A stretch of 64,000 nt of DNA from a virus, in the IMG/VR virus record IMGVR_UViG_3300027861_000012, positions 96,380 through 160,379 of that record; one strand, 5' to 3'. Position numbers and translations under genes: made by a program. Under the pieces are notes generated by a model, which did not search any database, was not told the DNA's origin, and worked only from the letters and a program-made list of their open reading frames with translations. Positions 3,001 to 20,595 of the stretch are shown here, piece by piece (the stretch's first letter is position 1; each line of letters starts with the position of its first letter).

Positions 3001-4274
3001 TTAGTGTCCGATTCATCTACAAAGTAGATGTAGTTCTCGTATGAATCAACACACAAGCTCAACAGCGATGAGTAGGCAGGGTCATCAAGGATAACTGTTT
3101 CCCCGGTACCATCCAAATTCCCTCTATGGATGGTGTTGTCTGTGATATCGACCCAATAAATCTCATACCGATTAACATGGATGTCGGCATCGGTTGGCTT
3201 GTTACCCGTATCAAACATCGCACGTCGATTGTTTCCGTCAAAGTCCATCCTAATACATTCGTCTTCAGACCACTCCATGACAAACAACCGCTCAGAAGCA
3301 TGGGGGTCAATCCACACCGATGTATCCTGAGTGAAGTCCAGATCATCTGATGGGTGGCGTGTATACACATCGTATCCGCCAGAATTCGTATGCTCGAATG
3401 CAAGGGTGTCATCTACATCAATGGTGTGGACCACCGTGCGTTCCCAGGCACGTTGTAATAGTTGATCCATATCGAGTGTGGAGACCACCGTCTGTTGGTA
3501 CACCAGCGTAGAGGGTTTGTACAGAATGGCCTTCCAACTCTTAGCCAAGCTGTCCTGATCTGAGTCACGGAGTTTTTCGTATCCGGTGCCATAGATAGAG
3601 ACCCGGTAGATATCTCCGTCTGCCTGATCGTAAGTAAAGTACAGATAGTCATCACCAGGATCGTATTCGAGCCGAATGACATTGACACCCGTGGTATCAA
3701 TATCGTACACTAAGGCATTGTTGCCGCCGTCCATGTCACAGACACGAAGCTGGTCACCATTCGAGTAGTAGATTTTGTCATTATCAATATCCACTGAGAC
3801 CGATGGTCCGTCTGTGGTGCCCGTGATACCGGTGACGATATTCGCCAGGTTGGTACCATCCAGGTCACATGTCCGGATGCTATTATTAGTCGAATCGCAG
3901 AGCACCAATTTACCCAACGCTGGGTGGATGCCCATTTCACTGATCCAGGCCAATCCTGAAGTCAAGACATCAGTTGCACCGGTGCCATCTAAGGCAGCCT
4001 TGCGAATCTTAGCCGGACTGTATTCGTACCAATAGACTTCATCCGCACCAGGATTCACTGTGATACCAACAGGACCAGCCGTACTTGTATCCAACCAGAC
4101 TTCGCTGTTGCCACCATCAAGATCACATCGCTTGATCTCTTGATTGGCATAATGTGTCCAGTAAATCTTGTCATTGGTGAGGTCTATCGCGGCATCCTGG
4201 CAGCCGTCTACACCACTGCTGAGAATCACAGCAGCATAGGCACTATCAGGTTTGAGGCGTAGAATCTTACCCAT
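1..4274 (-). CDS. Second giant repeat protein with beta-propellers (C-terminus outside window)
   Basis: An open frame starts at an ATG at 4274 and runs off the left edge without a stop (more than 1420 residues). I translated the beginning, the far end and several internal points by hand. The ATG follows an AAGGA ribosome site that lies in the last codons of the upstream giant gene. The first ~250 residues hold repeated blade motifs such as NDKIYWTHYA and IKRCDLDGG, typical of YWTD/NHL-type beta-propellers. A few 20-residue repeats follow, then a second propeller (about 3300-2570), then continuous 20-residue repeats like those of the neighbour (for example QDTVWPRSAS, RSASNTLSM). It is a paralogue of the 4277-19549 product. 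Probable role: tail-tip fibre or other virion surface fibre; this is inferred from position and repeat nature only. Confidence 0.85.
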   Translation of the reverse strand, partial: MGKILRLKPDSAYAAVILSSGVDGCQDAAIDLTNDKIYWTHYANQEIKRCDLDGGNSEVWLDTSTAGPVGITVNPGADEVYWYEYSPAKIRKAALDGTGATDVLTSGLAWISEMGIHPALGKLVLCDSTNNSIRTCDLDGTNLANIVTGITGTTDGPSVSVDIDNDKIYYSNGDQLRVCDMDGGNNALVYDIDTTGVNVIRLEYDPGDDYLYFTYDQADGDIYRVSIYGTGYEKLRDSDQDSLAKSWKAILYKPSTLVYQQTVVSTLDMDQLLQRAWERTVVHTIDVDDTLAFEHTNSGGYDVYTRHPSDDLDFTQDTSVWIDPHASERLFVMEWSEDECIRMDFDGNNRRAMFDTGNKPTDADIHVNRYEIYWVDITDNTIHRGNLDGTGETVILDDPAYSSLLSLCVDSYENYIYFVDESDTNNKVYRMDLDGSNITLILEATVDDVVRPYGLAAYNNQLYFCDYSAHIVKRCDYDGSNVTDLITGWNLPQAICIDRQNERIFFGRGISGGDIYVANIDGSGDTVLTDANLPDDLCYNEDNDTLYWTSGRDVKKTVVSTGITTTIHHGVFGKEYHGIDYFPFRNFIPRGMQSPLRLRHAATGETYIQGIGTSSLDWTSTAEAGFIITLNAPSGISVSDTLDYTGIFPRTLTSTITVSDVVGLNWILTLGPSSTITFVSVGDTTHVRSTSDSDSLDLSHDLDPTWILQLSGSSTIVCSDIATRIRIGSRTATNTIDISDTLDLLKAVSADSSGTLVISDNCVETTIWLRTPTHAIPLDDDLNVGYSLQRASSSTIDWVSVSAYAGVFNRTTSDTISASDVASFVQTVARTASDTVVLTSTASQLAVFARPVTTEIDLTSTGDRNIIVTYDLSDTITLTQAAIFDTTWVRSAVNALSLSHVLDAGWVLNKSLQDTLVLDSEADRLAVLGKSITSTLSISDLLEVNWAWPLASSSTLDISGTATQDTVWPRDASSTLDLDDTLARTALVSPSASSTLDLSDLSVLTVIWSLSSADDIDLTSTAAQTPIYLRPATDTMSLDDSADRIATVSHTASSTISLTGTASETSVLNLAASDTLVLDDDPDRLIVLNLSLTSTITLTSTGYEETEFTYSITHTLSISDAASRIATLQKDVSATLALSDTAGQDTVWPRSASGALLLSDDMSAGFVLTKDLSNTLVLTGTPDRIATVQKASSHTLDLTSIGDRNIVASKSATSVLVPSVSATQDTVWPRTASSIIDAVSQAALAFTLQKDVTDTLSLSNVASRVHVALRFSTSTLALTHSDTVLVVWDRALSSTIDLSDSLGRVATLGKSLLSSIDLDDAIDRVAIVQHSGTSTLIVTDISDGGKIVTATLSSTIVIGDDLDLGMVLGKSITDTLAPSDSASRVLVNVEAVTHNLSVSDTAAQLGIWVRSASNTLSMTYEVGV

Positions 4275-4276
4275 GA

Positions 4277-7200
4277 TTATTCCTTATCAATTACGTAGAG
4301 GCTACCGGACTCAGGCGGCTCAATGACAGCCGAGGCCGATGACGCTGGCACCAAAGTATCTTCTGCATCACCATCATATGTCCTTGGCCAGACACGGTGG
4401 GCCCAAGTCAGGTCATCCGAAGCTGACCGAGCAAAGGTCATTGAGCGGGTTGCAGTTTGTGTCAAGTCTCCGGTATTGTCTGCCGACTCGACTGAGGCCA
4501 GGTTGAATGTACTCTCCTGGGTTAGATCAACCACATTTTCGGTGACTCGTGGGTGTGTTGTGAAGTCGTCACCAGCATAAACGATACTGACGGCCATGTT
4601 GTCATCAAGCGTGAATGAAACCTCTGTGTCTTCAACGATAGAATCCCATGCACGACTCTGCCATGTGAGTGTATCATCAGAATCTCGGTTGTACACGCTA
4701 CTGGCCAGCGACAGGGCTTGACCAAGGGCGGCTGTCGATTCCAGGGCTTGAAGGGCCACAGTCGTTTCACCTGGGAGACTCGACAATGTGATGGTGTTGT
4801 CCCCAGTTCGATTCCTTGTGATGTTGAAGCTAGCCGCACTGGAGAGAGTCAGATCACTGGTACCACTGCGTTGGAGCGAATAACCAAGATTCAAATCGTC
4901 GGTCAATTCGATAGCGTTTGTCAGGTCACGAGCCCAAACAGTATCTTGTGTTGCCACATCGCTGGCAGCGATTTCGTGATCAACACTTCTTGGTGACACT
5001 ACGGCCTCGTTAGCACTGTCATCCATCACAAGGGTGTTCTCAGCATATCGGTCCCAAACTACATCGAAGACACTTGCATCTGACAGTATCAACGTGTTCG
5101 CAGCATTGCGGATAACTTCAACGACAATTATGTCGTCCAAATCAATGCTAGAACTTGACGCGGGACTGATGAAGTGTTCGTAGCTCAGCACTTCGTCTAG
5201 TGTCAACGTTGATTCGATAGACTTGTTAAGGATGCTGGTAAGATCAAGATCATCGTCTAGCGTCATGGTATGTGCAGCAAACCTACTGAAGATTGGCTGC
5301 TTGTCGCTAATACTGGTGAGCGTGAAAGTCGAAGACGCATCGCGGTCACGGAAAGTAATACTGGTAGCGACATCGCCAACAGTGAGATCAGTATCCAAAT
5401 CTCGCGTTAGTGTGTAACCAAGATTGAGTGCTTGGGCCAGATCAGTGGAATCCTCCCCGAATCTTGGTAACACTAACGTTTCACCACTGCTGTCGGATAG
5501 ATCCAGATCATCAGCAAGTGGTGGCCCCAGAACAAATAAGGTTGCCAACTCATCTGAAATTGTGGCAGCGTGTATGATTACTTCATTGAAATCAGTGGTC
5601 TCATAACCGATTGAATCCAGTTCAACTGTGGTGCTTCCGGCTTGCTGTGAAACGATATTTCGGTCTACAATAGAGACCAGTGTTAGGGTATTGTCGTGGG
5701 CCAAGGTTACAACAACGTTGCGGTCACCAATACTGGACAGATCAATTGCGTTACTGGCATACCGTAGATATACCATATCCGCGACGGCCAGACCAGACGC
5801 TGTCAGTGTATTGCTTAATGACTTACCAAGGGTTGCAATCCGTGTAGTGACATCACTTAGTGTAACAGCATTGGTAGCACTTCGGCCCAAGATGGAAGTT
5901 TCTGCACCTGTATCCGTGAGGTCAAGATCAGACTCACTCCATCGTTGCCTTACTGTAATGGCACCTACGGCTGTGTCCGCCAGGTCAATATCACTGGTAC
6001 TACCCTCAAGGGAGAGGAATGCCTCATCAACAACACTGGAGATGGTCAAGGTTGAAGTATCATCGGTTGTTCGGATTCGGTTTTGGGTGACGCTGTCGGA
6101 AAGATCAATGTTCGCGGTCACTTCTTTCAATGGTACAAAGACAACTGTGGATTCGTCACCCAGAGATAGCGAGACCGCAGTTGATCGTGGCCATACGGTG
6201 TCCTGCCCGGCAATGGCCGACAGGTCCAGAGTATCACTGCTGCTTCTGGGTGCCACATGTCCATAGACAAGTGAGTGTACGAAATCGAGATCACCTAGCA
6301 TCTGACGGGTTCTGGTGTAACCCGTGTATGGTGCAATGGCCAGACCCCATGGTCGTTGGTATTCGGTACCAGCCGACACTTGATTATGTGTATGAGGCGC
6401 AGTAATCTTGACACTGTGCAGCCCGATGTAGGTCCCGGCCGCAGCGTTGTCTTGGTAACAGACTGTATAGATCGAGTCGTTTACAGCGTTGAAGGCAATG
6501 TGCTCGAAGTGTCCGGACGGGATCGAAATCTCAGTAATCACCCATGCACTGGGCCCATCAACGTCGGCATAAAATGCCCGCGCGTAACCCGTGGAAAGTG
6601 ATTTGTACAACCAGAACAACCTACCATTGGTTTCGTCATAGTTCAGGTGAATCCAAGGTCTGGTCCCTGGGAAGTCGGTCAGATTACCAAGACGCACAAT
6701 TTCTGCGTTAGTATCCAAGTTCTTTTCAACGATGCGTCCGGTTGGGGATCTATCTGCGTACCACAATCTCCTGTTCGCACCATCACCTGCAAGATCGCTC
6801 GCATAGCCCGAGCCAAAATTCACGTCAGGATTCACGTTGTCCAAATCCCATATCGACCCATAACCGTTATTGAACAGAATAGCCGGAGCATGAATGGCAT
6901 ACATATTGTTGTTCTGTGAATCAACAAACGATCTACTGGCACGATAGACAGGCGGGTTGGGATACACGTAGAAGTTGGCACCGTTTAGATCGCATCCAAA
7001 CTCGTAGCCAAAGACATATGATCCGAAGTAAATACGATCATCAACAATGCCAAGATCCCAGGTATCGTTGGGATAGGCTTGTGACCCGGCTGGGTACGGA
7101 AGATCATTCAATTCAATTGCTGTTTCTTTACCGGTGAGGTCTGGCCTGAATTTCACAATTCGTGAGTGTAGCGAATCGCCTTCATAACCTTCACCTGTGT

Positions 7201-10200
7201 AGACTCTACCGTCGCCTTCGACATGCTCATCCAAGTCGTACAGAACAACGTCGGACAGAGTCAAACCCTGAGTAACTGTACGCCCGGCCGACCATAATGT
7301 ATTTGCATCACTATCCAGATCAAGGTCATTTTCACCCAACCGCAGTGGAATAGCTACGAGGTCTAGCTGGTCATCAAGCGGGATAGCTTGTTCCACTGGC
7401 TCGTATGAACCAAGGTAACCGAGAATTGTATCGTCGATATCAAGACCACTGGCGAGTGTTCGACCAAGTATGGCAATTCGATCCATCTCGTCAGTGACCG
7501 GGATGGTATGCTCAACAGTACGCGCCCATACAACATCGACACTGGCTGAATGCTCAGGTGTGAAGGAGTCGGCTGCCGACAGATGTATGATCCAGTCTTG
7601 TGGCCCGAGGGCAATACCTGTGTAGGAAGCGTCGTTGTCAATACGAATTATCTCTTGCGTCGGGAAGCTAGCATAGGCTTTGATACGCCGTACCTGGTGT
7701 GAATCCCCTTGGTGAGTATAGTAGATGTACTCATCCTCAAAGTTGTAGACCATATCCACAGCGTAGGTTGCAATGAAGGCGACCTGTGCCACATTGGAAC
7801 CATCTAAATCAGCCGACTTGATGTCCTGGTGCATCATGTCAGACCAGAACATTTTCTCGTTCACGGGGTCAATAGTAATGGCAGTGGGACCCGTGGGGTC
7901 TGTGTTTGTTTGCACCAGATTGGTCAAGTTTGACCCGGTTAATTCACATCGCTTGATGTAACCAGCACCGTTGTCAACAATGTACAGGTAACCGTTGGAA
8001 ACTTCCAAACCACGGACACGAGTTAATGACGTACCCGGAACAATTTTCTGGGGGTTGGAGCCATCGTAATTCATTCGCCAAATAGCTCGAATAGTTGAGT
8101 TGGTGCTATGCACGTAGGCAAAGACATGATCTGTGGCATCATTAACCGCCACGTTCATTACATTTGCATAGCCTGATGCCAGCATTTCCACATCGGTGCC
8201 GTCCAGGTTGGCACTCTTCAATGCCCCAGCACCACTGTATGTTTCGGCCCAGAAAATGCGTTCATCGTCTAAGGAGATTACTGCATCACCTGGGGTAAAC
8301 GGTACACCAGATTCAAACAAGTCCTTGAGGTGGCTGCCATCCAATGTGATGACACGGCAACGGTTGTCCTGGTTGTCCATGAGATGTAGGGCAAATGTAT
8401 TCGCGTTGGCATGGCCATGGACCAGCGTATGATCGAGAACCAGTGTACTCGTTGCTTCTGGCGTAAAGGTCTTCTGTGCAAAGTCACTCAATGCCACCAG
8501 AGTATCAGTTTCGCTTCGGCTAAAGATTGTCGTTTCCTGGGCCTCATGGTCCAGATCAAGGGTTGAGATAGCACTGCGGGGCCACACCACATAGCGTACT
8601 GCGGATTGGGTACTGGTAATTGAATCGGTAATTGATTGATTCGTGATAGCAGTACGATCCAAATCTTGCACGAGGACCAGAGTATCTCCATGTTCAACCT
8701 CGAAGGTGCGAGAAGTCCTGTACGATAGAGTCAGTGTGTCCTCAGCAGCCCGTAGTGCTACATGGATGGTACTCGCAGCATGGTCCAAATCAATGGAATC
8801 GGCAGTAGTCCGAATTGCCCAGAAAGTATCCTGAGCCGCTGTGGCCTCCAACACAAGTGTATCATCAAGGTCTTTGTTCAGTATCTGTTCCAGATCTAAT
8901 TCATCCGACAGCGTTAGTGGTGTTGGTGCATGGTATGAATACACCGCACTCAGGCTATGGTCCAGTGCCATGTTGTTCCAAGCCGCTCGTGGCCTGACAT
9001 GATAAAAGCTTGTGGTGTCATTCAGATCCACTGAATCGAAGTAGATGTAGGTACCTTCATCATAGGCTGATGTGTTACGCATCGTACTCAGGGACATGGT
9101 ATTCGTGTCAAGGGCATATACAGCATACTTACTAGCCAGATAGAGAATGTCACTTTCATGATCATAAACCATCTTCTCAACACCCTCATAACCGCCCTGA
9201 CCGGTCATGGTACCAACAAGTTGTAGGTTGTATGGGGCCGTCTTATTAACACGCCAGATGCGAGCATCCTGTGACGCACCGAAGTAGACGTAGTCATTGT
9301 TGTGGTCGAAAGCAATTGCATCATAGGTCTTGTTGATAGGCATGGCTACCACATGTGACCAATTGGTATACCCATTTCCGACCAACAAGTTATGGAAGGT
9401 ATGGGAACCAGTATCGCTACCAAAGGTCCAGAACAGACCTGTATTTGGATCACGTCGCAGACAGCTACCATACATGAAGACACCACCGGCTCCCAACATT
9501 TGGATGTGGTCGCCACCGTCTGACATACGCACGGTGTACATCGCCGAACAACCACCCTCTGGACAATGGCCACCATCAACTGTGAAGACCAGTCGTCCCA
9601 AACTGGGGATGATATCAAAGGTACTGTAACCACCAGCATGGTATGCCCACCACTCGCTCCAGGTACCATCGTTCAAATCAACAATCCCTACAGGGTCATT
9701 GCCATCCATGTCCCAACTGTTGATAACCTTGGGACCATCACTGGCACCATAACCATAGACACGATTCCCAACAGTATCGATCCGCAAATCCGAGTGCTTG
9801 GAGGTACCAAAGATGTGTTTGGTTTGGCCATACTCATTCATTCCCAGGATGCCATTAGCACCGCTGGAGACACCTAGCCACAACGGGCCGATAGTAACCT
9901 GGATGTCGTAGTAACTATAGCCGGAGAGGTGCAGCGTGTTGCTGGCAGCCAGATCAACCGGGAAATATACTGGAGCGTCAAGCTCAAGGGTATCGGTGGC
10001 ATCATAGGTGTAGGTGGACCCAGCCCGACTGGCGTCTTCTGTGAAGCCGATATCACTGGTGGCAAACAAGACACGGTTGATATCGAAGACAGCATCACTG
10101 GAAAGGTTGATGGTACTTGAAGCCGGTGTAGTCAGCAAGTAACCAAGATTGATATTCTGGGTCAAGTTCAGGTTGTCTTCAGCCGATTCAATATGGACCT

Positions 10201-13200
10201 TCTTGAGATCATGCTCAACGATGAGAAGGTTCGAGAGGGCTCTAACATAGACTGTCTCGCGGTTCGCATAATAGCCCCACATGATTGTCGAGTCAACAAA
10301 TTCGAGCGACAAGAAGTCTTCATGAGCATCAGCACTGAGGGTCAGGTTGGAGATGGCATCATGAGAGACCAAGGCGATGCGGTTTACATCGTCACTCAGA
10401 GACAATGTCCCAGTACCCAGTCGGTAGCTGTCGGTTTCTTCAATCGCAGTGTGCGAGAGGTCCATATCGGAGGTTGCTGAGACTTCTGTGACCAAGTAGA
10501 CGATTTGATCCAGGAACGTGAGGTTGGCTTCGATGTCGGCGGTGACAACGAAGCTGTAATCTTCAAGACTCTCAAGGACCAGGGTTGAAGTTTCTGCCCG
10601 TTCAAGAATAGCAACACGGTCAGCAACCTGTGATAGGTTGAGGGTGTGTTCAACGTCTTCAAGGAATGTTGGAATCGGAGCTTCATCAATTGCAAAGCCG
10701 TAAACGGTAGTTCGGTTGGTCGGCCGTGTAGCGTCTGGCCAGGTATGGACCACAGTACGATTGTATCCGTTCCAGTCAATTTTTTCAACATACCGACTCG
10801 AAGTGTCGCTGGATATAGAGTAGATGCAGTCATCATTGGGGTTGTAGGCAAAGTCTTTGATTTGATGTGGGTTCGGGTAGACAACCTCGATCTTAGTTTC
10901 TTCGGTATCGTCCTTATGAGCCTGATAGAAGGTACTGACGCCAGCTTGGTTGACCCACAATAGGCTCTCATGTGCTGGAACAAACTCCATATAGTATGGG
11001 TCCCCAGGTATCTCCATCCATAACGTCAGCCCTGAACCGTCTGTATTCATGCGCCAGATTTCTCCAGGCACGCCAGGATTGACAAACGTCGTTGCCCCGA
11101 TATACAGTTGCTGGTCTGCCGGGTCAATGGCGATTGAGTGCAGATTGTATGTACCCAACCCACCTGTGGAGGCGATTAGTGATTCATCGGTACCATCAAG
11201 ATTATTTTGGTACACGGCACCGAAGCCACCATTCTGGTGTGTATAATAAATCTTGTTATTGGCAGGGTCAACAGTAACATCAAGTATACCGCCAGGCCAC
11301 CCAGGTTCCAAATATGGAATCCAGGAACGAATTTCTGTGACGTTGCTGCCATCAAGATCGGCCCGCATGATTTTGTTCCGCAGATTGTCGGTCCAATACA
11401 TCTTATGATTGATGCCATCAATCACCATGTGCCAGCCACCACCTGAATTAAGGTCTGGATAAGGCGCGCCAATTTGGGTTGTGGCTACCACATAAGGGTC
11501 GGTTCCGTCTGCCTTCATCGAGAGGATTTCGTCATACAATTGATCTATCATATAGAGGCGGCCGTTTGGATCAAGGATACGTGTGACCGCCGCTGCATCA
11601 GACAATGGGAGGTAGTCGATAGGTGATTCTATTGTGGACAGGAATGCATCATCGTCCCATGTAACGGTATGACTGAGGGTATGACCCAGAACGGCAGTAC
11701 GATCACCGGTATCCGATGGCGTCAAGTCCTGGGTAATGCTCCGCTCGATGATACGCAATCCGGTGGCAGCATCTGTGAGATCAATGTCATCGGTTCCATA
11801 GTGGAACTTGACAGTGTTGTCGGCTGTGGCTTCATGGTCCAAGTCGGTGAGTTCACTGGCTGTGGTACCACCGGTAATCGGTAGTGCTTCAGCAAGCTGA
11901 CCTGGGAAGAGGTAATTGATCGCATTGCCAAATCGAACGGGCAGAACGTCAGCAGCATGATCAAGATCGATGGTATGGCTGAGAGCCCGTAAGGCCCAGA
12001 ATGTATCTTGTGTAGCTGTGTCATCCAGATCCATGGAGTGCGACATGGTCTTGTAGACGATGATAGTACGATCAGGGGTGCTAATCAGATCAAGATCATC
12101 GGTACTAGCACGATTCAAAACGCTAACCTCTGTGACCTCGTCAGAGAGGGTCAGTGTGTCAGTTATGTCTTTACCGAGTAGGAAAATGGTTTCCAGGGTG
12201 GCATCAAGATCAAGCGAGTCAGTAGCGGCTCGCGGTCGGATCATATTACCCACGAATATCTGGCTTAAATCCAGACTATGCGGCATCTCACGATCCAAGA
12301 CGTAATTGACATCCAATTGATCGTCGATTGCAACCGAGTCTCCGGCAGACCGTGGGAATACAGAATCCTGCTCGGCTGTATCATCCACAGGGATGTCGTC
12401 GGTCAACAGTTTACCCAACGAGACAATTCTGGCTAAATGGTGCCAGGTATCGAGTGGTGATTCGAGGCTCCGGGGTCGAACAGCATTCTGGGAGGCGGTT
12501 TGGTTAGGTTCCCAGATGGTGGTAGCATATCGATCCCAGACGCCAAGGAAAGTAACTGCGCTAGTGAGGTCGGTGGTGTCAGTTGGGTCACGTTGGAAGA
12601 CCATTAGTTCTTCCGCTGTGTCGCTAATAGGCACCAATGAATCGGTCAGTGATTTACCAAGAATTGCAACCCGGTCCATGGAGTCGCTCAAATCCAAAGA
12701 GTGGACGAGATGACGCAGAGATTCGGTTTCTTCCAGTACAGTATGACTCAGGTTGATTGTTTGTGTGAAGGATTTACCAAGGGTAGCAACTCGGCTGGCT
12801 ACATCCGAGAGGGTTGCTGTATTATCCGCACTTCGTGGGCGAAGGAAATTGGTATCTACTGTGCCAGAAACATCCAGAGTGTTTCCAAGGCTGTGGTCAA
12901 AGATTGCCAAGTATGAGGCTGAAGAAGATGGGTCCAATGTACCAGTTGCTGATCGGCTAACAACAAATACACGGGTTGCCGTGTCGTCCAAGTCCATTGT
13001 ATTTGTGGCTGTTCGCAGGTAGGCCCAAATATCATCCAACACCTGACTGACTATCAAAACGCTAGTCAGGTCTTTGGTAACCACAATGATTCGACCTACA
13101 ACCTGTGACAAATCAGGGGTAGATGTTGCACTTCTGGGTCGCACCATTGGGTAGACCAAGGTATGATCCAAATCAAGAGTATCATCACTGCTACGCTGGA

Positions 13201-16200
13201 GGATATAGCCAACATCGATTGCGTGCTCAAGCCCAACGGTGTTTTCAGAATCACGCGGGCGAATCAACGGATTTTCAATGTCTTGCCCCGCCAACAATAC
13301 GGAAACCAAGGTCTTGCCCAGGATGGCGGTACGGTCACCAACATGGGTAAGATCAATGGAGGTGTCGGGACTACGTGGGAAGACGGCTGTGTATGCGAGA
13401 GTATCGTCCAACGACATTGTGGTGTCAATTGAGCGATCAAAGATGGCAAGATATAGGGCCGTATGATCTGGGTCGATAGCATTGCTGCTACTACGAGCCC
13501 AGACCATAAGACCGATGAACTCATCCGTGAGGTTGAAATCACTACTGAATGATCGCCCATAGACACCATTGAATGCCAGGATGCTATTTAGTCCAACAGT
13601 ATTCTCAGAATCACGCGGACGAACGGCATCATAGTCAATGACCCCGGTGGGCTCCAATGTGTTGGTCGATTCACGCTGCAAGCTGTAAATGACATCAAGA
13701 TCGTGGTCCAGTGATGTGGTGACGCTAGCATCCAACGGGCGAGTGATATTCTGTGTAGTGGCATCACTGGGGCTCAGTGTGGAAGTCCCGTCATGACTCA
13801 CGAGTGCGATTCTATCAACGGTGTCTGATACATCAATTGAGTTTGAGCCGCTACGGGGCCACACAGTATCTTGTTCTGCTGTTGCCGATACCGTCATGAT
13901 GTTGGACAAGAGACGATCAAAGACTGCCAGGTACAGGGCTTGATCAGTTGAAGTCAGCGTGTCGCTGGAATTTCTTGGCCAAATGGTATCTTGTTCGGCA
14001 GACTGTGAAAGTGTCCCTGTATTCTCGGCTTGGAGTTGTAGGATTCCACTTCTGCTGGCAGTATCATCGGGATCGAGTGTATTACTGGCATATCGATCAA
14101 AGACCATTTGGCGCTCGGCAGTATGATCGGGCGTCAGTGTATGAGACAGGTCTTTGCCGACCACAATCAGGCGTGTTAGAAGATGACTGATGGTAACCGT
14201 GTGTGATTCAGTCCGGTCATAGGTGGCTACACGCCCCGCCGAGTCAGTGGCATCAATGGTGTTTGAAAGTACCCGATCAAAAATAGCCAGATACAAACCG
14301 CTATCACTGATGTCTAGCGATACGTCTGCTGATCGCCCAAAGATTCCCGTATAGACAAAGTCCTGACTGAGTGTAATCGTGACGGAAGGTTGCTTCCCGA
14401 GGACGGCAGTTCGGTCGCCCACACTATCAAATGTCAGGAGCAGTTCGGCATCGCGCGGCCACACCATATCCTGATCAGGGGTTGTGTCAAAGATCAAACC
14501 GCTGGTTAGCGTCTTTCCAAGGGTCGTGGTGCGGTCATAGTCATGGCTCAACACGATGGTGGATGTGCTGTCTAACGGCCGAACTGTGTCCTGCACATTG
14601 GTATCCGAGATATCCAGAGTATGATTCAAGGATTTCCCGAGGGTTGCAATCCGGTCACCCGTACCACTGAGGTCGAGTGTATCAACTGAATTTCGTGGCC
14701 AGACTGTATCCTGTTCCCCGGCATCTGACAGCGGAATGATGTGAGATGGTTGTTTCTGAAGCGTAGCAGTTCTATCAACAACATAATCCAAATCAATGGT
14801 AGACGAACTGCTTCGTGGCCAGATTGTATCCTGTTCGTTGCTGTCAGAAAGATCAAGAGTATGGCTCAAGGATTTCCCGAGGGTAGCAATCCGATCTCCA
14901 GTATCACTTAACGTGATAGTGTTGGTTGAACTCCTTGGCCAGATCGTATCTTGTTCAACTGAATCAGACAGGGTAAGCGTGTGTGAAGGTTGCTTCTGAA
15001 GCGTTGCGATTCGATCAACAACATCAGATAGTTCGAGTTCATCCAGAACTACAAAAGCCTCAAACACAGTATCTTGGGTTGCTATTGAGTCTAGTTCAAG
15101 AACACTGGTTGCAGACCGATTCAGGATGCTGGTTTCAGTAGCGGTGCTGGTCAGACTCAAAGTATCGGTGCTGTACCGATCAAAGAGCATGACACGGGAT
15201 ACCGTATCAGATAGGCTGATTGTATCCAAAAAGGCTCGACCGAGAATGGCAACACGGTCGCCAACATGGGTGAGATCAATATCGTGTGTAATATGACGCA
15301 ACCAGTCAGTATCCATTATGGCGGTACTGGTCCATGTCAATGACTGCGAGAGACCTTTACCAAGGGTAGCTGTTCTGTCACCAATATCGGTGGCTGCGAG
15401 CGTGCTGGTAGCGGATCGTGGCCAGATGGTATCTTGCTCGGCACTGATAGACCATGCGAGACTGCTGGTAGCATAACGATCCCAAAGTATGACACGGATG
15501 ACACTGTCACTCAGTGTCAGATCGTCGGTTTGATTCTTAGTCACTTGGATGAGGACATCCGGAGTCTGAGCGATGAGCACCCCAGAAGATGCGCTGCGTG
15601 GCCAGATTGTATCCTGTTCAACATCGCTGTCGATGGTAAGGGTATCAGTGAGTTCTTTGCCAAGTGTGGCAATGCGATCCACAATACTCGTGAGGTCCAG
15701 TGTATTGGCAGTATTTCGTGGCCAGATCGTATCTTGTTCTGCATCACTGTCAATGGTGAGCGTATGGGATTGATCTTTCTGCAACTCAACGATATGCTCA
15801 AGTCCGTGCCCCACACCGATGGTATTGGTAGCTGATCGTGGCCATACGGTATCTTGCTCGGCACCACTATCGATTGCTACTGTGTGGGTTAGTTCTTTAC
15901 CCAGGGTTGCAATTCGGTCTACTGTGCCAGTGAGATCAAGAGTGCTGTCAGCGGTACGGGGCCATACTGTATCTTGTGTCACAATACTGCTTAGTGTAAG
16001 CGTATGGGACTCATCTTTCTGCACAGTGATGATTCGATCAAGTTCATGATCCAACCCCATGGTATCGGCTGATGATCGTGGCCAAATTGTATCTTGCTCG
16101 ACTGTGGAATCCCATGTGAGTGTATGGGTCGGAGCACGATTCAAAATAGCAACTCGGTCTCCAAGGCTAGTCAGATTAAGCGTGTTTTCAGCATATCTGT

Positions 16201-19200
16201 CCCAGACCGTCAACTGAGTGATCACCTCAGATAGTGTCAGAGTATTACTCAGAGACCTGACAAATATGGCCAGATACAAGGCTTCATCGGTTGCAGCCAA
16301 TGTGTTATCCGCCGACCGATTGAAATCCCCGGTGTATGTGAATTCTTGGGAGACAACCAGCGTGTGCGACAAGTCTTTCCCAAGGAACAGTGTTGCATGA
16401 TTGCTGTGATCTAGGTCTAGGGTATGGTCGAGTGACCGTGGGAATAGGGCCACGTATTCAACAAGGTGGTCCAGTTTGTTCCATGTAAGGTCATCGGAGT
16501 GGACCGCCAGGTTAAGGACGATATTGCGATGCAGAAGATGTTCCACGCCAATATCACCATCAGATTGACGAACGAAAACCAACTCCCGTTCTGCCAGATC
16601 ATCCAGTGTGGTCTCGGTGCTTATGGGACGTAGGAACAGAGCCACACGCTCAGTCTCATCACCAAGACTCAGTGTAACATCAGGCAGTCGAACAAACACA
16701 CTGTCTTGAACCACGAGGTGGTCCAAAATGATATTGTCAACGAAACCCCGTTCCAAGATGTAATTGGTATGCAACAGGTGCGAGAGATCGATTGTGCTGG
16801 AGGCATCTCTTGGCCGTACAGCATCATGATCTGGTGTGCTGATTAGCTCCAGAGTTTGTTCAATATCTTTCTGAAGAATGACATTGAGATCAAGAAGCTC
16901 GCTAAGTGTCAGGGTATGTTCGACGCTACGTGGCCGCACCATGTAACCGTCAGCCTGATGATCCAAATCTGGTTCTGAATCTGTGGGCCGCTGTGCATAA
17001 ACCAACACTTCCACGATGGCATTGGCAACAATTTCGCTGGCCGCCGAGCGTGGACGATCAGAGTCATGCATGACAGCATCTGTAATCGTGATACTGTGTG
17101 CAATTGATCGGTCACGAACCGCAAGGTATGTTGCCAGGTCATTGGTGTCAAGATCACTGACCAAGTATCGTGTTCGGTCAGTAAAGAATTCTGCCGCTTG
17201 TGTGACCGTAAACAGATTATTGGTTGCATACCTATCAAAGACAGCATCGAATGTGACGACATCGTACATGGTAGACAGCATGTTGTAGGCTGTCATTGAA
17301 TAGATGTCAGCAAGTTCGGCTTCGAGTTCAACACTGGCTGTCAAACCATTTCGATGATCCCGCACGATGGGGTCCTGTGGTGAGACAATGACACCGCGCC
17401 ACTCGCGGTTTTCCCAATCTAGTAATCCAACCTCTTTACCCAGGGTTTGACGACAGAAATCTAGGAAGTTCTGTGCCTCATCTTCTGCCAGTCCGTTGAA
17501 TTGGAACGTCAAATGCTGAATCTTGGGCCAAATCTGGTCGGCAAAAACAATCAGTGTCCCGCCACGGCTCTCTCGTTTGATGCGGTGGAACGCCAGGCTG
17601 TCCTTATTGTCAAACTCTGGCCCACGTAAATGAATTGATAGTGTGGGATCGACAGCAGGGTAGAAAAAGGTGACACCACTGGAATCACCAATCACCGGTT
17701 GGCCTGTTTTTGGTGGTGATGGGGCATCAGGGTCAGTTGTTGATCCAACAAACGGTGAGTAATTATGCAGTGTTGAATCTTGAAGATTGACAAACGCCAT
17801 CGTTTGAGTCAACAAAAGATTAGTCGTAACCTCAAACGGAGCCCGCAGAATAATTCGATCAACTTCATGTAAAAGACTCAGTGTGTCACTGGCTCGCTCT
17901 GTGGTGAGTCCTCTCGCCTCATGACTGAGAGTCAAATACGAGGTTGCCGATTCTGCAATGCTTAGCTGAGCGTAATCTCCAAGATCGATGGTATTGGTAG
18001 CCGAAGCTGACGTACCCGTAGACAATGCCAGGGCCGCAGAAGCCTCACTGGTGAACCAAATGTTTTGGGTACGAATTGGAAGTGTGCCCAAAGATATGGT
18101 GTATTCGGCCGCGTGAGTTAGCTCGTAAAGACGTTCCAGATTATACTGGGTGGTCAATGGGTCATAGACTTGTACCAGCGGCCCAAGAAACTCTGATTCA
18201 GCCGAGACATGACGTGGATATCGAACATCCTCGGCATGACTCAATGAGAGGATATTACTGGCAGACACTTGCCGGATACTGGGATCAACCTGTTCGCTAA
18301 ACGACAGTGTGGACTCACAGTTGCCAATAAACGGGCGACCAACATATGCAGTCTGAACCAGGGTCAGAAAACCGGTTTCGGTTCCTGGGTACTTCGGGTA
18401 GACCAGATAGACAATGTAGTCCCAGTTGTCCAACACCGATTCGGCGTACAAACTGATCCAGGATATTCGAGCCGTCTGGCTAAGATTAAGCGAGTCGCTG
18501 GCATCGCCATGCCATGGAACTGGCGTATAGGGACCATCGACAAATTGAATCTCACTCAAGGCGTCCACAACGTGCCAAGTATGTTTTGCACGCCCAACCA
18601 GATACATCAGGTCATGAGTCATGCTCTCATTGAACGGCTGGGTGACATCATGGTCATGACTAAGATTCAATTGGCTGATGACTGGCGCAATATACCAGTC
18701 TCCCACAGCGTCGGTATTCAGAACTATATCATCCTGTGCCGAGAGACTCCAGGGTCTGACAACACTGACCACATCATTAAGGGTCAGGGTGTCCGCCACT
18801 GGAAGCACATCAGTCGCTAGGATTGAGGAAAAGGTGATGGTGTGTTCTTCAGAACGGTACCAAGGTCGAATGACATTGAGATCATCATTGAGATCAAGAT
18901 CATCTGATGCGTCACCGAAACGCAAGTGATGCCTGGAGGCGTCCGTCATGGACGAGAGATCATCGGTAGCATTGATATACCACGGCCGAGTAGTAGTGGC
19001 TACTGATGTGAGGTCCAGGTTGTTGATAGCATACTCAAAGAGCCAGTTATGTTCCGGCAAGCTGCCAAGAACAAGACTGTTACTGGCCGAGAGTTGGAAG
19101 ATAGTCTGACGCGATGCATCATTCAGAATCAGTTCGTTGGAAGCATCGCGTGTGATGCGACCAAAGGCCACATTTATGTCTTGAGTGAGCGTTTCAGACA

Positions 19201-19549
19201 GGTGGGAATGTGGAACCGTATTGAGAAGATCCCAAGAAGCATGGAGCACTTCCATGCTCAAACCTGTCATGCGGATGCGACCGCTACCGGGTTTACCTAA
19301 AACCTCGATACGCTGCTGGGACAGCCTAAGATACCCTGGATCGGGTAGGCCAAGAACATCCAGATGTTGTGTGGGTACAATCAAATCACCAGGATCGGAT
19401 TGGCCCAGTACCTCGATGTGTTGCTGCGCAGTACGAATATCACCTGGGTCTGATTGACCCATGGCAAGAATCGACTGCATAGTGACTTGTAACTCGGATG
19501 GTATTTCAGCAAATACCAAGACCGATTGTTTCGTTACACGAATCGACAT
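4277..19549 (-). CDS. Giant 5090-residue tail protein of 20-residue repeats with four beta-propellers
   Basis: One uninterrupted frame of 5090 codons; its ATG shares a base with the upstream TAA stop (TAATG). Residues 1-85 carry short repeats with GQSDPGD and EVLG motifs. From ~85 the chain is mostly tandem 20-residue units with consensus like NTLDLSDTGDRIATLGK alternating with HTLTLSDSVEQDTIWPR. By length arithmetic that is roughly 180 units. At about 593-750 a different domain (DSSGVTFFYP to LTASVELEAEL, with LLDWENREWRGVIV) resembles tail-distal/minor-tail domains. Four propeller-like insertions lie near residues 2658-2955, 3218-3510, 3716-3986 and 4113-4413, with motifs such as NHKMYWTDN, NKIMRADLDGSN and EKMFWSDM. 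Position after tape measure and LamG proteins suggests a tail-tip or side-fibre component for host adsorption. The regular alternating hydrophobics suggest a beta-solenoid or extended beta fibre. The last codons KE-stop (AAGGAATAA) form the ribosome site of the next gene. Confidence 0.9.
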   Translation of the reverse strand: MSIRVTKQSVLVFAEIPSELQVTMQSILAMGQSDPGDIRTAQQHIEVLGQSDPGDLIVPTQHLDVLGLPDPGYLRLSQQRIEVLGKPGSGRIRMTGLSMEVLHASWDLLNTVPHSHLSETLTQDINVAFGRITRDASNELILNDASRQTIFQLSASNSLVLGSLPEHNWLFEYAINNLDLTSVATTTRPWYINATDDLSSMTDASRHHLRFGDASDDLDLNDDLNVIRPWYRSEEHTITFSSILATDVLPVADTLTLNDVVSVVRPWSLSAQDDIVLNTDAVGDWYIAPVISQLNLSHDHDVTQPFNESMTHDLMYLVGRAKHTWHVVDALSEIQFVDGPYTPVPWHGDASDSLNLSQTARISWISLYAESVLDNWDYIVYLVYPKYPGTETGFLTLVQTAYVGRPFIGNCESTLSFSEQVDPSIRQVSASNILSLSHAEDVRYPRHVSAESEFLGPLVQVYDPLTTQYNLERLYELTHAAEYTISLGTLPIRTQNIWFTSEASAALALSTGTSASATNTIDLGDYAQLSIAESATSYLTLSHEARGLTTERASDTLSLLHEVDRIILRAPFEVTTNLLLTQTMAFVNLQDSTLHNYSPFVGSTTDPDAPSPPKTGQPVIGDSSGVTFFYPAVDPTLSIHLRGPEFDNKDSLAFHRIKRESRGGTLIVFADQIWPKIQHLTFQFNGLAEDEAQNFLDFCRQTLGKEVGLLDWENREWRGVIVSPQDPIVRDHRNGLTASVELEAELADIYSMTAYNMLSTMYDVVTFDAVFDRYATNNLFTVTQAAEFFTDRTRYLVSDLDTNDLATYLAVRDRSIAHSITITDAVMHDSDRPRSAASEIVANAIVEVLVYAQRPTDSEPDLDHQADGYMVRPRSVEHTLTLSELLDLNVILQKDIEQTLELISTPDHDAVRPRDASSTIDLSHLLHTNYILERGFVDNIILDHLVVQDSVFVRLPDVTLSLGDETERVALFLRPISTETTLDDLAERELVFVRQSDGDIGVEHLLHRNIVLNLAVHSDDLTWNKLDHLVEYVALFPRSLDHTLDLDHSNHATLFLGKDLSHTLVVSQEFTYTGDFNRSADNTLAATDEALYLAIFVRSLSNTLTLSEVITQLTVWDRYAENTLNLTSLGDRVAILNRAPTHTLTWDSTVEQDTIWPRSSADTMGLDHELDRIITVQKDESHTLTLSSIVTQDTVWPRTADSTLDLTGTVDRIATLGKELTHTVAIDSGAEQDTVWPRSATNTIGVGHGLEHIVELQKDQSHTLTIDSDAEQDTIWPRNTANTLDLTSIVDRIATLGKELTDTLTIDSDVEQDTIWPRSASSGVLIAQTPDVLIQVTKNQTDDLTLSDSVIRVILWDRYATSSLAWSISAEQDTIWPRSATSTLAATDIGDRTATLGKGLSQSLTWTSTAIMDTDWLRHITHDIDLTHVGDRVAILGRAFLDTISLSDTVSRVMLFDRYSTDTLSLTSTATETSILNRSATSVLELDSIATQDTVFEAFVVLDELELSDVVDRIATLQKQPSHTLTLSDSVEQDTIWPRSSTNTITLSDTGDRIATLGKSLSHTLDLSDSNEQDTIWPRSSSSTIDLDYVVDRTATLQKQPSHIIPLSDAGEQDTVWPRNSVDTLDLSGTGDRIATLGKSLNHTLDISDTNVQDTVRPLDSTSTIVLSHDYDRTTTLGKTLTSGLIFDTTPDQDMVWPRDAELLLTFDSVGDRTAVLGKQPSVTITLSQDFVYTGIFGRSADVSLDISDSGLYLAIFDRVLSNTIDATDSAGRVATYDRTESHTVTISHLLTRLIVVGKDLSHTLTPDHTAERQMVFDRYASNTLDPDDTASRSGILQLQAENTGTLSQSAEQDTIWPRNSSDTLTSTDQALYLAVFDRLLSNIMTVSATAEQDTVWPRSGSNSIDVSDTVDRIALVSHDGTSTLSPSDATTQNITRPLDASVTTSLDHDLDVIYSLQRESTNTLEPTGVIDYDAVRPRDSENTVGLNSILAFNGVYGRSFSSDFNLTDEFIGLMVWARSSSNAIDPDHTALYLAIFDRSIDTTMSLDDTLAYTAVFPRSPDTSIDLTHVGDRTAILGKTLVSVLLAGQDIENPLIRPRDSENTVGLEHAIDVGYILQRSSDDTLDLDHTLVYPMVRPRSATSTPDLSQVVGRIIVVTKDLTSVLIVSQVLDDIWAYLRTATNTMDLDDTATRVFVVSRSATGTLDPSSSASYLAIFDHSLGNTLDVSGTVDTNFLRPRSADNTATLSDVASRVATLGKSFTQTINLSHTVLEETESLRHLVHSLDLSDSMDRVAILGKSLTDSLVPISDTAEELMVFQRDPTDTTDLTSAVTFLGVWDRYATTIWEPNQTASQNAVRPRSLESPLDTWHHLARIVSLGKLLTDDIPVDDTAEQDSVFPRSAGDSVAIDDQLDVNYVLDREMPHSLDLSQIFVGNMIRPRAATDSLDLDATLETIFLLGKDITDTLTLSDEVTEVSVLNRASTDDLDLISTPDRTIIVYKTMSHSMDLDDTATQDTFWALRALSHTIDLDHAADVLPVRFGNAINYLFPGQLAEALPITGGTTASELTDLDHEATADNTVKFHYGTDDIDLTDAATGLRIIERSITQDLTPSDTGDRTAVLGHTLSHTVTWDDDAFLSTIESPIDYLPLSDAAAVTRILDPNGRLYMIDQLYDEILSMKADGTDPYVVATTQIGAPYPDLNSGGGWHMVIDGINHKMYWTDNLRNKIMRADLDGSNVTEIRSWIPYLEPGWPGGILDVTVDPANNKIYYTHQNGGFGAVYQNNLDGTDESLIASTGGLGTYNLHSIAIDPADQQLYIGATTFVNPGVPGEIWRMNTDGSGLTLWMEIPGDPYYMEFVPAHESLLWVNQAGVSTFYQAHKDDTEETKIEVVYPNPHQIKDFAYNPNDDCIYSISSDTSSRYVEKIDWNGYNRTVVHTWPDATRPTNRTTVYGFAIDEAPIPTFLEDVEHTLNLSQVADRVAILERAETSTLVLESLEDYSFVVTADIEANLTFLDQIVYLVTEVSATSDMDLSHTAIEETDSYRLGTGTLSLSDDVNRIALVSHDAISNLTLSADAHEDFLSLEFVDSTIMWGYYANRETVYVRALSNLLIVEHDLKKVHIESAEDNLNLTQNINLGYLLTTPASSTINLSSDAVFDINRVLFATSDIGFTEDASRAGSTYTYDATDTLELDAPVYFPVDLAASNTLHLSGYSYYDIQVTIGPLWLGVSSGANGILGMNEYGQTKHIFGTSKHSDLRIDTVGNRVYGYGASDGPKVINSWDMDGNDPVGIVDLNDGTWSEWWAYHAGGYSTFDIIPSLGRLVFTVDGGHCPEGGCSAMYTVRMSDGGDHIQMLGAGGVFMYGSCLRRDPNTGLFWTFGSDTGSHTFHNLLVGNGYTNWSHVVAMPINKTYDAIAFDHNNDYVYFGASQDARIWRVNKTAPYNLQLVGTMTGQGGYEGVEKMVYDHESDILYLASKYAVYALDTNTMSLSTMRNTSAYDEGTYIYFDSVDLNDTTSFYHVRPRAAWNNMALDHSLSAVYSYHAPTPLTLSDELDLEQILNKDLDDTLVLEATAAQDTFWAIRTTADSIDLDHAASTIHVALRAAEDTLTLSYRTSRTFEVEHGDTLVLVQDLDRTAITNQSITDSITSTQSAVRYVVWPRSAISTLDLDHEAQETTIFSRSETDTLVALSDFAQKTFTPEATSTLVLDHTLVHGHANANTFALHLMDNQDNRCRVITLDGSHLKDLFESGVPFTPGDAVISLDDERIFWAETYSGAGALKSANLDGTDVEMLASGYANVMNVAVNDATDHVFAYVHSTNSTIRAIWRMNYDGSNPQKIVPGTSLTRVRGLEVSNGYLYIVDNGAGYIKRCELTGSNLTNLVQTNTDPTGPTAITIDPVNEKMFWSDMMHQDIKSADLDGSNVAQVAFIATYAVDMVYNFEDEYIYYTHQGDSHQVRRIKAYASFPTQEIIRIDNDASYTGIALGPQDWIIHLSAADSFTPEHSASVDVVWARTVEHTIPVTDEMDRIAILGRTLASGLDIDDTILGYLGSYEPVEQAIPLDDQLDLVAIPLRLGENDLDLDSDANTLWSAGRTVTQGLTLSDVVLYDLDEHVEGDGRVYTGEGYEGDSLHSRIVKFRPDLTGKETAIELNDLPYPAGSQAYPNDTWDLGIVDDRIYFGSYVFGYEFGCDLNGANFYVYPNPPVYRASRSFVDSQNNNMYAIHAPAILFNNGYGSIWDLDNVNPDVNFGSGYASDLAGDGANRRLWYADRSPTGRIVEKNLDTNAEIVRLGNLTDFPGTRPWIHLNYDETNGRLFWLYKSLSTGYARAFYADVDGPSAWVITEISIPSGHFEHIAFNAVNDSIYTVCYQDNAAAGTYIGLHSVKITAPHTHNQVSAGTEYQRPWGLAIAPYTGYTRTRQMLGDLDFVHSLVYGHVAPRSSSDTLDLSAIAGQDTVWPRSTAVSLSLGDESTVVFVPLKEVTANIDLSDSVTQNRIRTTDDTSTLTISSVVDEAFLSLEGSTSDIDLADTAVGAITVRQRWSESDLDLTDTGAETSILGRSATNAVTLSDVTTRIATLGKSLSNTLTASGLAVADMVYLRYASNAIDLSSIGDRNVVVTLAHDNTLTLVSIVDRNIVSQQAGSTTVELDSIGYETTDFNEVIIHAATISDELATLFVLGPPLADDLDLSDSSGETLVLPRFGEDSTDLAQALNLGYTLTRDLDTDLTVGDVATSITFRDRDASSTFTLTSISDKQPIFSRFAAHTMTLDDDLDLTSILNKSIESTLTLDEVLSYEHFISPASSSSIDLDDIIVVEVIRNAANTLILSDASVFDVVWDRYAENTLVMDDSANEAVVSPRSVDHEIAASDVATQDTVWARDLTNAIELTDDLNLGYSLQRSGTSDLTLSSAASFNITRNRTGDNTITLSSLPGETTVALQALESTAALGQALSLASSVYNRDSDDTLTWQSRAWDSIVEDTEVSFTLDDNMAVSIVYAGDDFTTHPRVTENVVDLTQESTFNLASVESADNTGDLTQTATRSMTFARSASDDLTWAHRVWPRTYDGDAEDTLVPASSASAVIEPPESGSLYVIDKE

Positions 19550-20595
19550 TAAACCGCCTTAACACCGAAAGTTGCGTTATTGATGCCCTCTGGTGTCCAA
19601 ACCACACCAGTATCAGGATCTATGGTGGAAATTCCATAGTTCATCTGATAGTATTCATGGGCAGAGTATTCGTCTCCGGAATCAAAGTCTTCAATGGTGC
19701 CATTGGAATCAATTCTGAAGTACAATTCCCAACCGTGCGCCGCTAGTGTTCGGGTACATGCATTTAACTGGAGACCCAGTACCTCTAAGCTCGGGTACAA
19801 TGATCCCCAGGAGAACATGTCCACACTGCCAGATACATCGGTTTCGACGTAGCTGGCATCATCATCTAAAATCACCTCATTCAAATAAGACACATGCGAG
19901 GAGGGGCCGCTTGCATCCCATTGATTTGATGGCTCGTCACCGTACAGCGAAATCCCTTCAATCCTACATGGACCGAGGAAATCGTTGTGCGGTGCCGGAC
20001 CATCGCCATCACAGACATAAATGTCATCATACATACATGTCCGGTCTATAGTGAATTGAACACCCTGAACAGTATCATGGTTCCAGGGATCGGTATCAAT
20101 TCCAGATAAGGAGAGTACAGTGTTGCCATCCACACGAACCTCAACAGTTCCAGCGGAATCATGGATGTATGCCTTGACTTCAATGTAGTTCCACTGAAGC
20201 ACTGCTAAGTTAGCCCCAACACTTTCACCACGAAACGTGTCACCCGTGTAAATTCTAAGTTCCCCGTTCATCATCCGACGTAATCGTACTTGTTGCCACC
20301 CTACAGGCGACAGTAGCATCATAAGATCACTGTTATCAATGAACCAGTCGCTGCCACGCCACCCAAACCCGACAATCCACGTTGTATGTTCTGCCTCTAA
20401 GCGTTGACGAAAGAGACAACTATTGCTATTGGGGTATTTGAAACCAAGTCCGACCCCGTCACGCCCGACCTGGATACTGGCGCTATTATGATGCTCCAGG
20501 TAACTCCACTTTTTGTGCATAGCATCATACAGGTCGAGACCAGTAGTACCGGCCGGACCCATATTTTCAAAGCCTTCAATCCAGCGTAATGCCAT
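19549..20595 (-). CDS. LamG-like tail protein, paralogue 3 of 3
   Basis: 348 residues, starting MALRWIEGFENMG. The start shares a base with the previous stop (TAATG at 20595). The N-terminal two thirds look like a concanavalin A/LamG-type beta sandwich: ...WIVGFGWRG..., EVRVDGNTVLSLSG, and an IDDVYICD-like strand here read as YDDIYVCDGDG. The C-terminal third carries WDASGPSSHVSYLNE, then ends GINNATFGVKAV, matching the ends of the two upstream paralogues (GINAIQAGVKVG, GFNAAQFGVKVG). Probably a virion surface or receptor-binding tail protein that sits with the giant fibre encoded immediately downstream. Function is inferred from fold-like pattern and position. Confidence 0.85.
   Translation of the reverse strand: MALRWIEGFENMGPAGTTGLDLYDAMHKKWSYLEHHNSASIQVGRDGVGLGFKYPNSNSCLFRQRLEAEHTTWIVGFGWRGSDWFIDNSDLMMLLSPVGWQQVRLRRMMNGELRIYTGDTFRGESVGANLAVLQWNYIEVKAYIHDSAGTVEVRVDGNTVLSLSGIDTDPWNHDTVQGVQFTIDRTCMYDDIYVCDGDGPAPHNDFLGPCRIEGISLYGDEPSNQWDASGPSSHVSYLNEVILDDDASYVETDVSGSVDMFSWGSLYPSLEVLGLQLNACTRTLAAHGWELYFRIDSNGTIEDFDSGDEYSAHEYYQMNYGISTIDPDTGVVWTPEGINNATFGVKAV

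Follow-up and report, generated by a model that had tools for sequence, protein, structure and literature searches.

A 5,090-residue phage protein of 20-residue repeats and beta-propellers, probably a tail-tip protein with a giant C-terminal extension

Enlargement of a phage tail-tip protein by binding domains is already known as the evolved Dit of lactococcal and other siphophages, in which the added domains aid adsorption (PMC10688798, in the sections of that paper drawn on here). Propellers also have a precedent, six-bladed ones being predicted in Klebsiella phage depolymerases (PMC11448410, likewise in the sections drawn on). The subject here is a single 5,090-residue open reading frame (ORF) in a 64,000-nucleotide stretch of viral DNA, termed the window, which is positions 96380-160379 of the 177,656-bp IMG/VR record IMGVR_UViG_3300027861_000012 (G000). 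There is a good probability that its product is a tail-tip ring protein, with a domain of tube/Dit fold, that bears a very long C-terminal adhesin fibre of repeats and propellers. In open-licence PubMed Central articles, searched by title and by the start of the abstract, no description was found of the protein family, its 20-residue array, its scale or the split propeller discussed below.

The gene lies on the minus strand, a point absent from the first-pass annotation of the window, and its parts are as follows.

4277..19549, minus: giant minor tail protein ORF, 5,090 aa, about 560 kDa, isoelectric point 4.4
17789..19150, minus: diverged N-terminal 20-residue array, ~13 units over residues ~134-587, counterpart of the array in small homologues
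17294..17782, minus: conserved minor-tail domain, residues 590-752, tail-tube/Dit fold predicted from alignment, model and fold comparison
11933..17263, minus: main 20-residue array, residues 763-2539, 88.5 units
10670..11572, minus: propeller 1, residues 2660-2960
9038..9931, minus: propeller 2, residues 3207-3504, 18% identity to propeller 1
7601..8410, minus: propeller 3, residues 3714-3983, YWTD/LDLR-B type
6323..7234, minus: propeller 4, residues 4106-4409
4661..6322, minus: C-terminal array, residues 4410-4963, 27.6 units

As that annotation had it, the frame is single and open throughout 4277-19549, with zero internal stops. Its ATG at 19549 overlaps the stop of the preceding gene (TAATG). 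A coat-protein search of IMG/VR gave 138 relatives, of which 80 were kept, and the closest among those kept, IMGVR_UViG_3300007764_000001 (G001; 89% capsid identity), has, arranged as in G000, ORFs of 4,895, 3,617, 781 and at least 2,601 aa. The first of these is a homologue with the same architecture and 45% identity over ~4,800 aligned residues; since it comes from a separate phage record, an assembly artefact is excluded. Misassembly is further countered by the lack of DNA tandem repeats at the default score of Tandem Repeats Finder (window 1-23000). Identity by codon position in the pair, 0.57/0.65/0.35, is as expected of a protein under selection.

Residue identity within the ORF, by an autocorrelation that needs no model, is 13.3%, 15.2% and 11.2% at lags 20, 40 and 60, and 4.7-8.5% at the remaining lags from 1 to 63, save 9.7% at lag 18. 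A cyclic 20-state profile scores 3126, and 10 shuffles reach no more than 16; as the profile was trained on this ORF and the neighbouring 3,604-aa ORF the score is partly self-fitted, which the autocorrelation is not. The profile covers 3,276 residues, or 164 unit-equivalents, 128 of them gapless 20-mers. Between residues 775 and 2522 there are 87 unit starts, and 82 of the 86 spacings are exactly 20, three being 21 and one 24. The tandem 20-residue units initially perceived are thus real, their number having been slightly overcounted at ~180. The consensus is about A-[ST]-[SDN]-T-L-D-L-S-D-T-A-D-R-x-A-V-[LW]-P-R-S. Units show some tendency to alternate between two kinds, with identity of 0.25-0.27 at separations of 2, 4, 6 and 8 versus 0.19-0.21 at 1, 3, 5 and 7. 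The alternation is weaker in the G001 homologue (0.23 at separation 2, 0.18 at 1), and no such 40-residue super-repeat is seen in the 3,604- and 3,617-aa ORFs; it probably reflects duplication history rather than structural need.

The minor-tail-like domain originally placed at about residues 593-750 corresponds to a conserved domain at ~590-752. An AlphaFold2 model made with 67 family rows (429 residues) has a mean predicted local distance difference test score (pLDDT) of 55.9 and a predicted template-modelling score (pTM) of 0.39. High confidence is mainly in the domain core: pLDDT is 82-96 in model residues 201-220 and 251-320, and 46-55 in the loop at 221-250. In fold comparison with VIA, model residues ~196-325 (giant residues ~622-751) gave matches of Z 9.3-5.9, and 48 of the 50 rows bear titles of proteins from phage tails, head-tail interfaces, gene transfer agents or contractile injection systems, or of Hcp proteins. 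They include phiCD508 (Z 9.3, 121 residues, root-mean-square deviation (rmsd) 5.3), the lambda tail tip 8iyk_E (Z 8.1, 106 residues, rmsd 4.2), p2 Dit (Z 7.7, 119 residues, rmsd 4.3) and SPP1 Dit (Z 5.9, 111 residues, rmsd 3.7). A tail-tube fold is accordingly what the prediction indicates for the domain. Sequence comparison gave no match to the Dit family proper. At a threshold of 0.01 the 67 family members are without a PHROG match, matches in Pfam and NCBIfam are weak, unrelated and confined to single members, PDB sequences gave no match to the domain at E<=1, and Foldseek searches of PDB and BFVD with the model found none at E<=0.001. The product of a neighbouring gene, orf137, is a relative of the domain (hhalign 94.7%, 6.4e-8).

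Gene position points the same way. The window holds a minus-strand tail operon with genes for terminase large subunit, portal, P22-type coat protein and tape measure protein, and past the window the operon goes on with ORFs of 3,604, 781, 2,408, 137 and 955 aa (a probable ATG start gives the 781-aa ORF 775 aa). The genes just ahead of the giant are these.

23435..27751, minus: tape measure protein, 1,438 aa
22785..23435, minus: 216-aa protein, PHROG_8123 (unknown function), adjoining the tape measure gene
19549..22719, minus: three tandem PHROG_2448 paralogues, function unknown, between the tape measure region and the giant

The 5,090-aa gene thus stands between the tape measure gene and orf137/orf955, and orf955, from its size and position, is the putative tail-tip hub. 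The small homologue is placed alike in relatives, among the matches listed. The consistent list of VIA matches together with this position supports a ring-forming role at the tail tip. A tail-tip or side fibre of extreme length had been proposed at first pass; of this, the phage tail protein with propellers in its array stands and a tail-tip location is probable, given the gene order and the predicted tube/Dit fold, and the extreme length stays conjectural because the array is not confidently folded. That the protein is instead a non-virion adhesin, secreted or at the cell surface and expressed by a lysogen, is very improbable: its composition is adhesin-like and some relatives are prophages, but its start codon shares bases with the stop of the tail-operon gene before it, and its domain is common to ordinary minor tail proteins.

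Membership of an ordinary minor tail family had not been recognized. Of the 80 kept loci, 17 long records (G001-G017, G001 included) were chosen, and the tape measure query has a match in all 17. In each of the 16 other than G001 there is an ORF of 396-1,687 aa that shares the domain (giant residues ~500-750), two pairs of these ORFs being identical or nearly so. Among the matches listed, it follows the tape measure gene and precedes orf137/orf955; PHROG_2448-like paralogues precede it in only some records, G010 has extra ORFs ahead of the hub and G014 has no hub match. A profile search with the domain gave 163 IMG/VR stretches (80 kept) and seven loci in GTDB genomes, and the resulting 87 loci hold 85 ORFs with the domain, 79 of them complete (counts that are not dereplicated; 66 of the 85 remain after a k-mer filter). 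These 79 small ORFs are of 324-1,349 aa, with a median of 662, and have 1-245 residues past the domain. In every one of them the 20-mer array score is above that of each of 10 shuffles of its own sequence, so that the repeat is not unique to the giant. The small ORFs have a median of 11 units before the domain (maximum 19.9) and at most 2.5 after it; the giants have 13 and 150 (G000) and 9 and 136 (G001). The giants are therefore a C-terminal expansion of an ordinary gene. Two other members, of 1,349 and 1,687 aa (L132:12063-16112 and L141:14090-19153, both minus), are enlarged N-terminal of the domain, which shows that the family grows in more than one way.

In cultured phages, tblastn with a 967-aa array stretch, the domain, propeller 3 and the hub found no relative, and distant matches to the tape measure and capsid proteins were seen. 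Single-sequence scans of IMG/VR with the propeller regions and tape measure confirmed no relative but, as even the giant-bearing G001 was missed, they say nothing on absence. A DNA pattern for the repeat matched two loci of the G001 record and five other contigs, none with the repeat.

Between the two giants, units in corresponding positions have a mean identity of 43% (102 units), versus 19% for non-corresponding units, and the positional partner is the best or tied-best match for just 50 of the 102. The main arrays of G000 and G001 differ by four 40-residue blocks, which form two clusters of 80 residues (one alignment setting splits one block into 25+15). One cluster is the youngest array growth found.

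14549..15024, minus: two 240-bp (80-residue) copies; G001 is without 80 residues there

Residues 1509-1588 and 1589-1668 are tandem copies with 72-74% nucleotide and 69% amino acid identity to each other, versus 44-45% amino acid identity to G001; for the array against G001 in 60-residue windows, the median best nucleotide identity is 50% and the highest 60%. Because the copies are closer to each other than to G001, this duplication postdates the split of the two phages. In the second cluster, residues 1161-1240 and 1241-1320 are 62% identical. The 3,604/3,617-aa pair shows no long indel in one alignment setting, and gaps of 8, 12 and 20 residues in the other.

Four YWTD-like propeller regions, with bounds taken from gaps in the 20-mer array, interrupt the later arrays at residues ~2660-2960, 3207-3504, 3714-3983 and 4106-4409. 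Pfam DUF5050 matches the piece with propellers 3 and 4 at 3.1e-9, above the cut-off, and that with propellers 1 and 2 at 9.7e-4, below it. Against PDB, propeller 3 matches the YWTD propellers of LRP2 at 1.7e-41, so the similarity to YWTD/LDLR-B repeats lies in propeller 3 and in DUF5050. The four insertions were read as propellers from the outset, and the array gaps, DUF5050 and the LRP2 match bear this out. Of 15 records searched, only G001 also has DUF5050 propellers; 11 other virus records and three metagenome-assembled genomes have none.

For the fold of the 20-mers, a solenoid and a trimeric fibre are rival readings. The structure prediction suggested at first pass was run with AlphaFold2 on 12 units (21 rows) and yielded a model that is beta throughout, two strands to each 20-mer, with mean pLDDT 63.4 and pTM 0.53. 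The pLDDT stays below 90 at every residue, averages for the five models run from 50 to 63, and the array is thus not confidently folded. Tail fibres are usually trimers; spacing between rungs in a beta-solenoid is about 0.48 nm, and for a trimeric fibre about 1.3 nm per repeat may be taken. A monomeric beta-solenoid with one 20-residue, two-strand rung per repeat, which for 164 units would be a stiff rod about 80 nm long, is credible but short of an even chance. It would suit the 12-unit model, its pTM and a second look with VIA, which matched beta-solenoids and solenoid-like proteins (HxuA Z 11.6, SRRP 12.1, curli CsgA 11.7 with rmsd 9.4). Less favourable to it are the pLDDT values and the spread of five-model averages, the lack of any Foldseek match of the array model in PDB at E<=0.001, and the domain model, in which most repeats are below pLDDT 50; stacked strands with one rung per repeat are thus a moderate-confidence solenoid in one model and not in the other. 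AlphaFold2 is, moreover, reported to yield unrealistic beta-solenoids from repeat sequences, as first explored with 20-residue units (PMC11795689, in the sections available). An obligate trimer, either a triple beta-spiral or an intertwined fibre like viral fibre shafts and up to about 200 nm long, is possible if somewhat doubtful. Two short strands per 20-mer, with hydrophobic residues at adjacent positions 15 and 16 of the second, suit packing between chains, as trimery would suit a tail fibre and the low to moderate confidence of the monomer models, but the repeat has no single invariant Gly or Pro.

The architecture continues into the next gene. Neither this second giant ORF nor the propeller apparently split between the two genes figured in the first-pass account.

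3..4274, minus: 3,604-aa second giant ORF, first 1,424 residues in the window, running on to G000:C1:89839
4280..4321, minus: C-terminal 14 residues of the 5,090-aa ORF, ending LYVIDKE, candidate first strand of propeller 5
3504..4274, minus: propeller 5 without its first strand, residues 1-257 of the 3,604-aa ORF
2442..3323, minus: propeller 6, residues 318-611 of the 3,604-aa ORF
3..2441, minus: beginning of a 57-unit array in the 3,604-aa ORF, 54 of 56 spacings exactly 20

The 3,604-aa ORF has the same architecture as the 5,090-aa ORF, with 73 unit-equivalents and three propellers (residues 1-257, 318-611 and 1774-2022; DUF5050 1.9e-19). The 5,090-aa ORF ends ...SGSLYVIDKE, and the next starts MGKILRLKPD two bases past the stop and in another frame; at the start of propeller 1, LYMIDQLYDEILSMKADG, the spacing equals that of LYVIDKE followed by MGKILRLK. 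In a profile of the 12 other propellers, six per phage, the N-terminus of the 3,604-aa ORF scores 123.6 alone and 131.9 with the 14-residue tail, and its G001 equivalent 117.4 and 127.4; the match begins at model position 34 alone and at 16 with the tail. Among 14-mers drawn as controls from the same proteins at steps of seven residues, 2 of 726 (G000) and 3 of 698 (G001) score at least as high, all of them first-strand stretches of propellers in the profile. As the tail raises the score in both phages, the missing first strand of propeller 5 is at the end of the preceding protein, and from sequence it is likely that the two chains would dock end to end, in trans, via a shared propeller.

It seems rather unlikely that propeller 5 is simply truncated and LYVIDKE kept since its codons hold the Shine-Dalgarno sequence of the next gene. 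The sequence GATAAGGAATAATCATG does contain AAGGA, six bases ahead of the ATG. Over the opening 30 codons of the 3,604-aa ORF (G000:C1:89839-100653), codons for identical residues are synonymously conserved in 22 of 27 cases versus 42% overall (binomial 3.5e-5, for a stretch picked after looking). But a Shine-Dalgarno site accounts for the last codons only, not for the LYVI strand or the spacing, and the gain in score is equalled solely by first strands of other propellers, the best array 14-mers reaching 128.5 (G000) and 125.5 (G001). Synonymous conservation is also raised at the starts of the 5,090-aa (14/21) and 781-aa (13/20) ORFs and is not raised at that of the 2,408-aa ORF (7/18); such conservation probably marks initiation signals, yet the stretch exceeds a Shine-Dalgarno site. 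A programmed frameshift at the boundary is not a favoured reading: an AAGGA of its own precedes the second ORF, whose ATG is two bases past the stop, and no slippery heptamer was seen there by eye.

Taken together, in the arrangement that we infer, the domain (residues 590-752) would form part of the ring at the distal end of the tail, and the giant keeps the pattern of its small relatives, with 20-residue beta repeats before the domain. In the giant lineage the C-terminal side has gained about 150 units along with four YWTD-like propellers, a growth due at least partly to whole units (40 or 80 residues) being duplicated in frame. This extension would probably project from the tail tip as a long fibre, on which the propellers would be beads that bind polymers of the host or of extracellular surfaces, and the 3,604-aa ORF would continue it through the likely docking at the shared propeller. 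Taking this further, the 5,090-, 3,604-, 775- and 2,408-aa ORFs (11,877 residues, about 36 kb by coordinates and 20% of the 177.7-kb record) may be a single composite adhesive fibre of separately translated chains docked end to end on the tail-tip ring. That is doubtful; in this reading the first joint would be a beta-propeller completed by a strand of the preceding chain.

Several points weigh against this picture. To put several copies of a 560-kDa protein into each virion would be expensive. The propellers' binding role is an assumption. With the array as BLAST query there is a strong match in G001, a weak one in G002 (E 3.1e-5) and none in the other 15 records, so the tie to the small arrays comes from the profile test. 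The domain model puts the bulk of the N-terminal array, along with the opening units of the C-terminal array, below pLDDT 50 (model residues 31-50 are at 80-85), and the repeat may therefore not fold as a monomer. The fold match of the domain is modest (VIA Z 6-9, Foldseek E >=0.02), no Pfam, PHROG or NCBIfam entry that takes in these proteins as a group matches the domain or the repeat, and 'tail-tip ring' accordingly depends on fold prediction and gene position. A split unit is not supported at the 3604-775 and 775-2408 boundaries, where null prefixes equal or exceed the joined score in 150/711, 678/714, 43/145 and 138/145 cases; the 2,408-aa ORF starts mid-repeat, its N-terminus alone scoring 27 bits from model position 13.

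As to the host, by title the seven GTDB loci with the domain are from two Planctomycetota, two Pirellulales (an order of Planctomycetota), one Kiritimatiellae, one Anaerolinea and, as a weak match, one Legionellales. Two long Planctomycetota contigs (290 and 444 kb) have near the domain a coat protein gene and, at a distance of about 30-40 kb, an integrase gene, with bacterial-type genes elsewhere (IlvD, ABC transporter and P-type ATPases; 10 ORFs scanned), so they most likely carry prophages. The Anaerolinea genome also holds a coat protein. From the prophage-bearing contigs of its relatives, the host of G000 is probably a planctomycete; few phages of Planctomycetota have, to our knowledge, been described. 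The Planctomycetota genome behind L225 has a second coat-protein homologue on another contig (G018:C4:2786-4003, L246), possibly from a second related prophage.

Some other genes merit mention. One of the PHROG_2448 paralogues has a weak match to polysaccharide lyase 14 (E 0.0062, below the cut-off), a possible hint of a fold like that of lectins or lyases. Within the locus L009:3272-12855 (minus), the 781-aa ORF has a Laminin_G_3 domain (2.9e-13) and the 2,408-aa ORF a borderline one (4.2e-6, just below the cut-off); a beta-rich repeat is present in both, and propeller-like stretches in the latter. At window 31242-34540 (minus), a run of five adjacent ORFs (216-221 aa) has the look of diverged paralogues, with shared motifs and identity of 15-18% to the first of them; the one scanned has no PHROG match. 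The phage also encodes a class V aminotransferase (window 51192-52394, plus; Pfam 6.9e-54) and a peptide chain release factor with PCRF and RF-1 domains (window 54225-55328, plus).

The locus offers a traceable case of gigantism in a phage adhesin, from about 11 repeats in an ordinary tail-tip protein to about 164. Part of that growth came from duplications of exact units, datable by comparison with a related phage, and propellers were acquired in addition. A minor-tail family without annotation, occurring in phages and prophages of Planctomycetota, is defined as well. The split propeller, if true, would be a new joint between tail proteins, and the composite fibre, if true, a modular way of building a phage fibre longer than any single polypeptide.

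Among known systems, the tail-tube-fold proteins (lambda V, lambda 8iyk_E, SPP1 Dit 2x8k and p2 Dit 2wzp) are alike in the predicted fold of residues ~622-751 and in gene position between tape measure and hub, but the present protein has no sequence match to them and has a giant C-terminal extension. Likeness to beta-solenoid repeat adhesins and curli CsgA is in the predicted two strands per ~20 residues, though here the fold is unproven and no sequence relation was found in PDB. Propeller 3 and the DUF5050 match relate the protein to YWTD (LDL-receptor class B) propellers, which here are in a phage tail protein, set in a 20-mer array, one being apparently split across two ORFs. With the Klebsiella phage proteins it shares a propeller fold in phage host recognition, but those, in the sections of the source drawn on, are depolymerases with one or few domains, and no enzyme function is suggested here (PMC11448410). 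Closest is the evolved Dit, also a Dit/tube-fold tail-tip protein with added binding domains; on the same partial basis, its inserts (e.g. 168 aa) lie within Dit (PMC10688798), whereas here more than 4,300 residues follow the domain. Evolved Dit has a classical Dit core with inserted carbohydrate-binding domains; in the present protein the core is not detectably Dit by sequence, and the extension is C-terminal and made of 20-mers and propellers. The protein may thus work like an evolved Dit and, rather than being classed as one, be seen as a far more extreme analogue.

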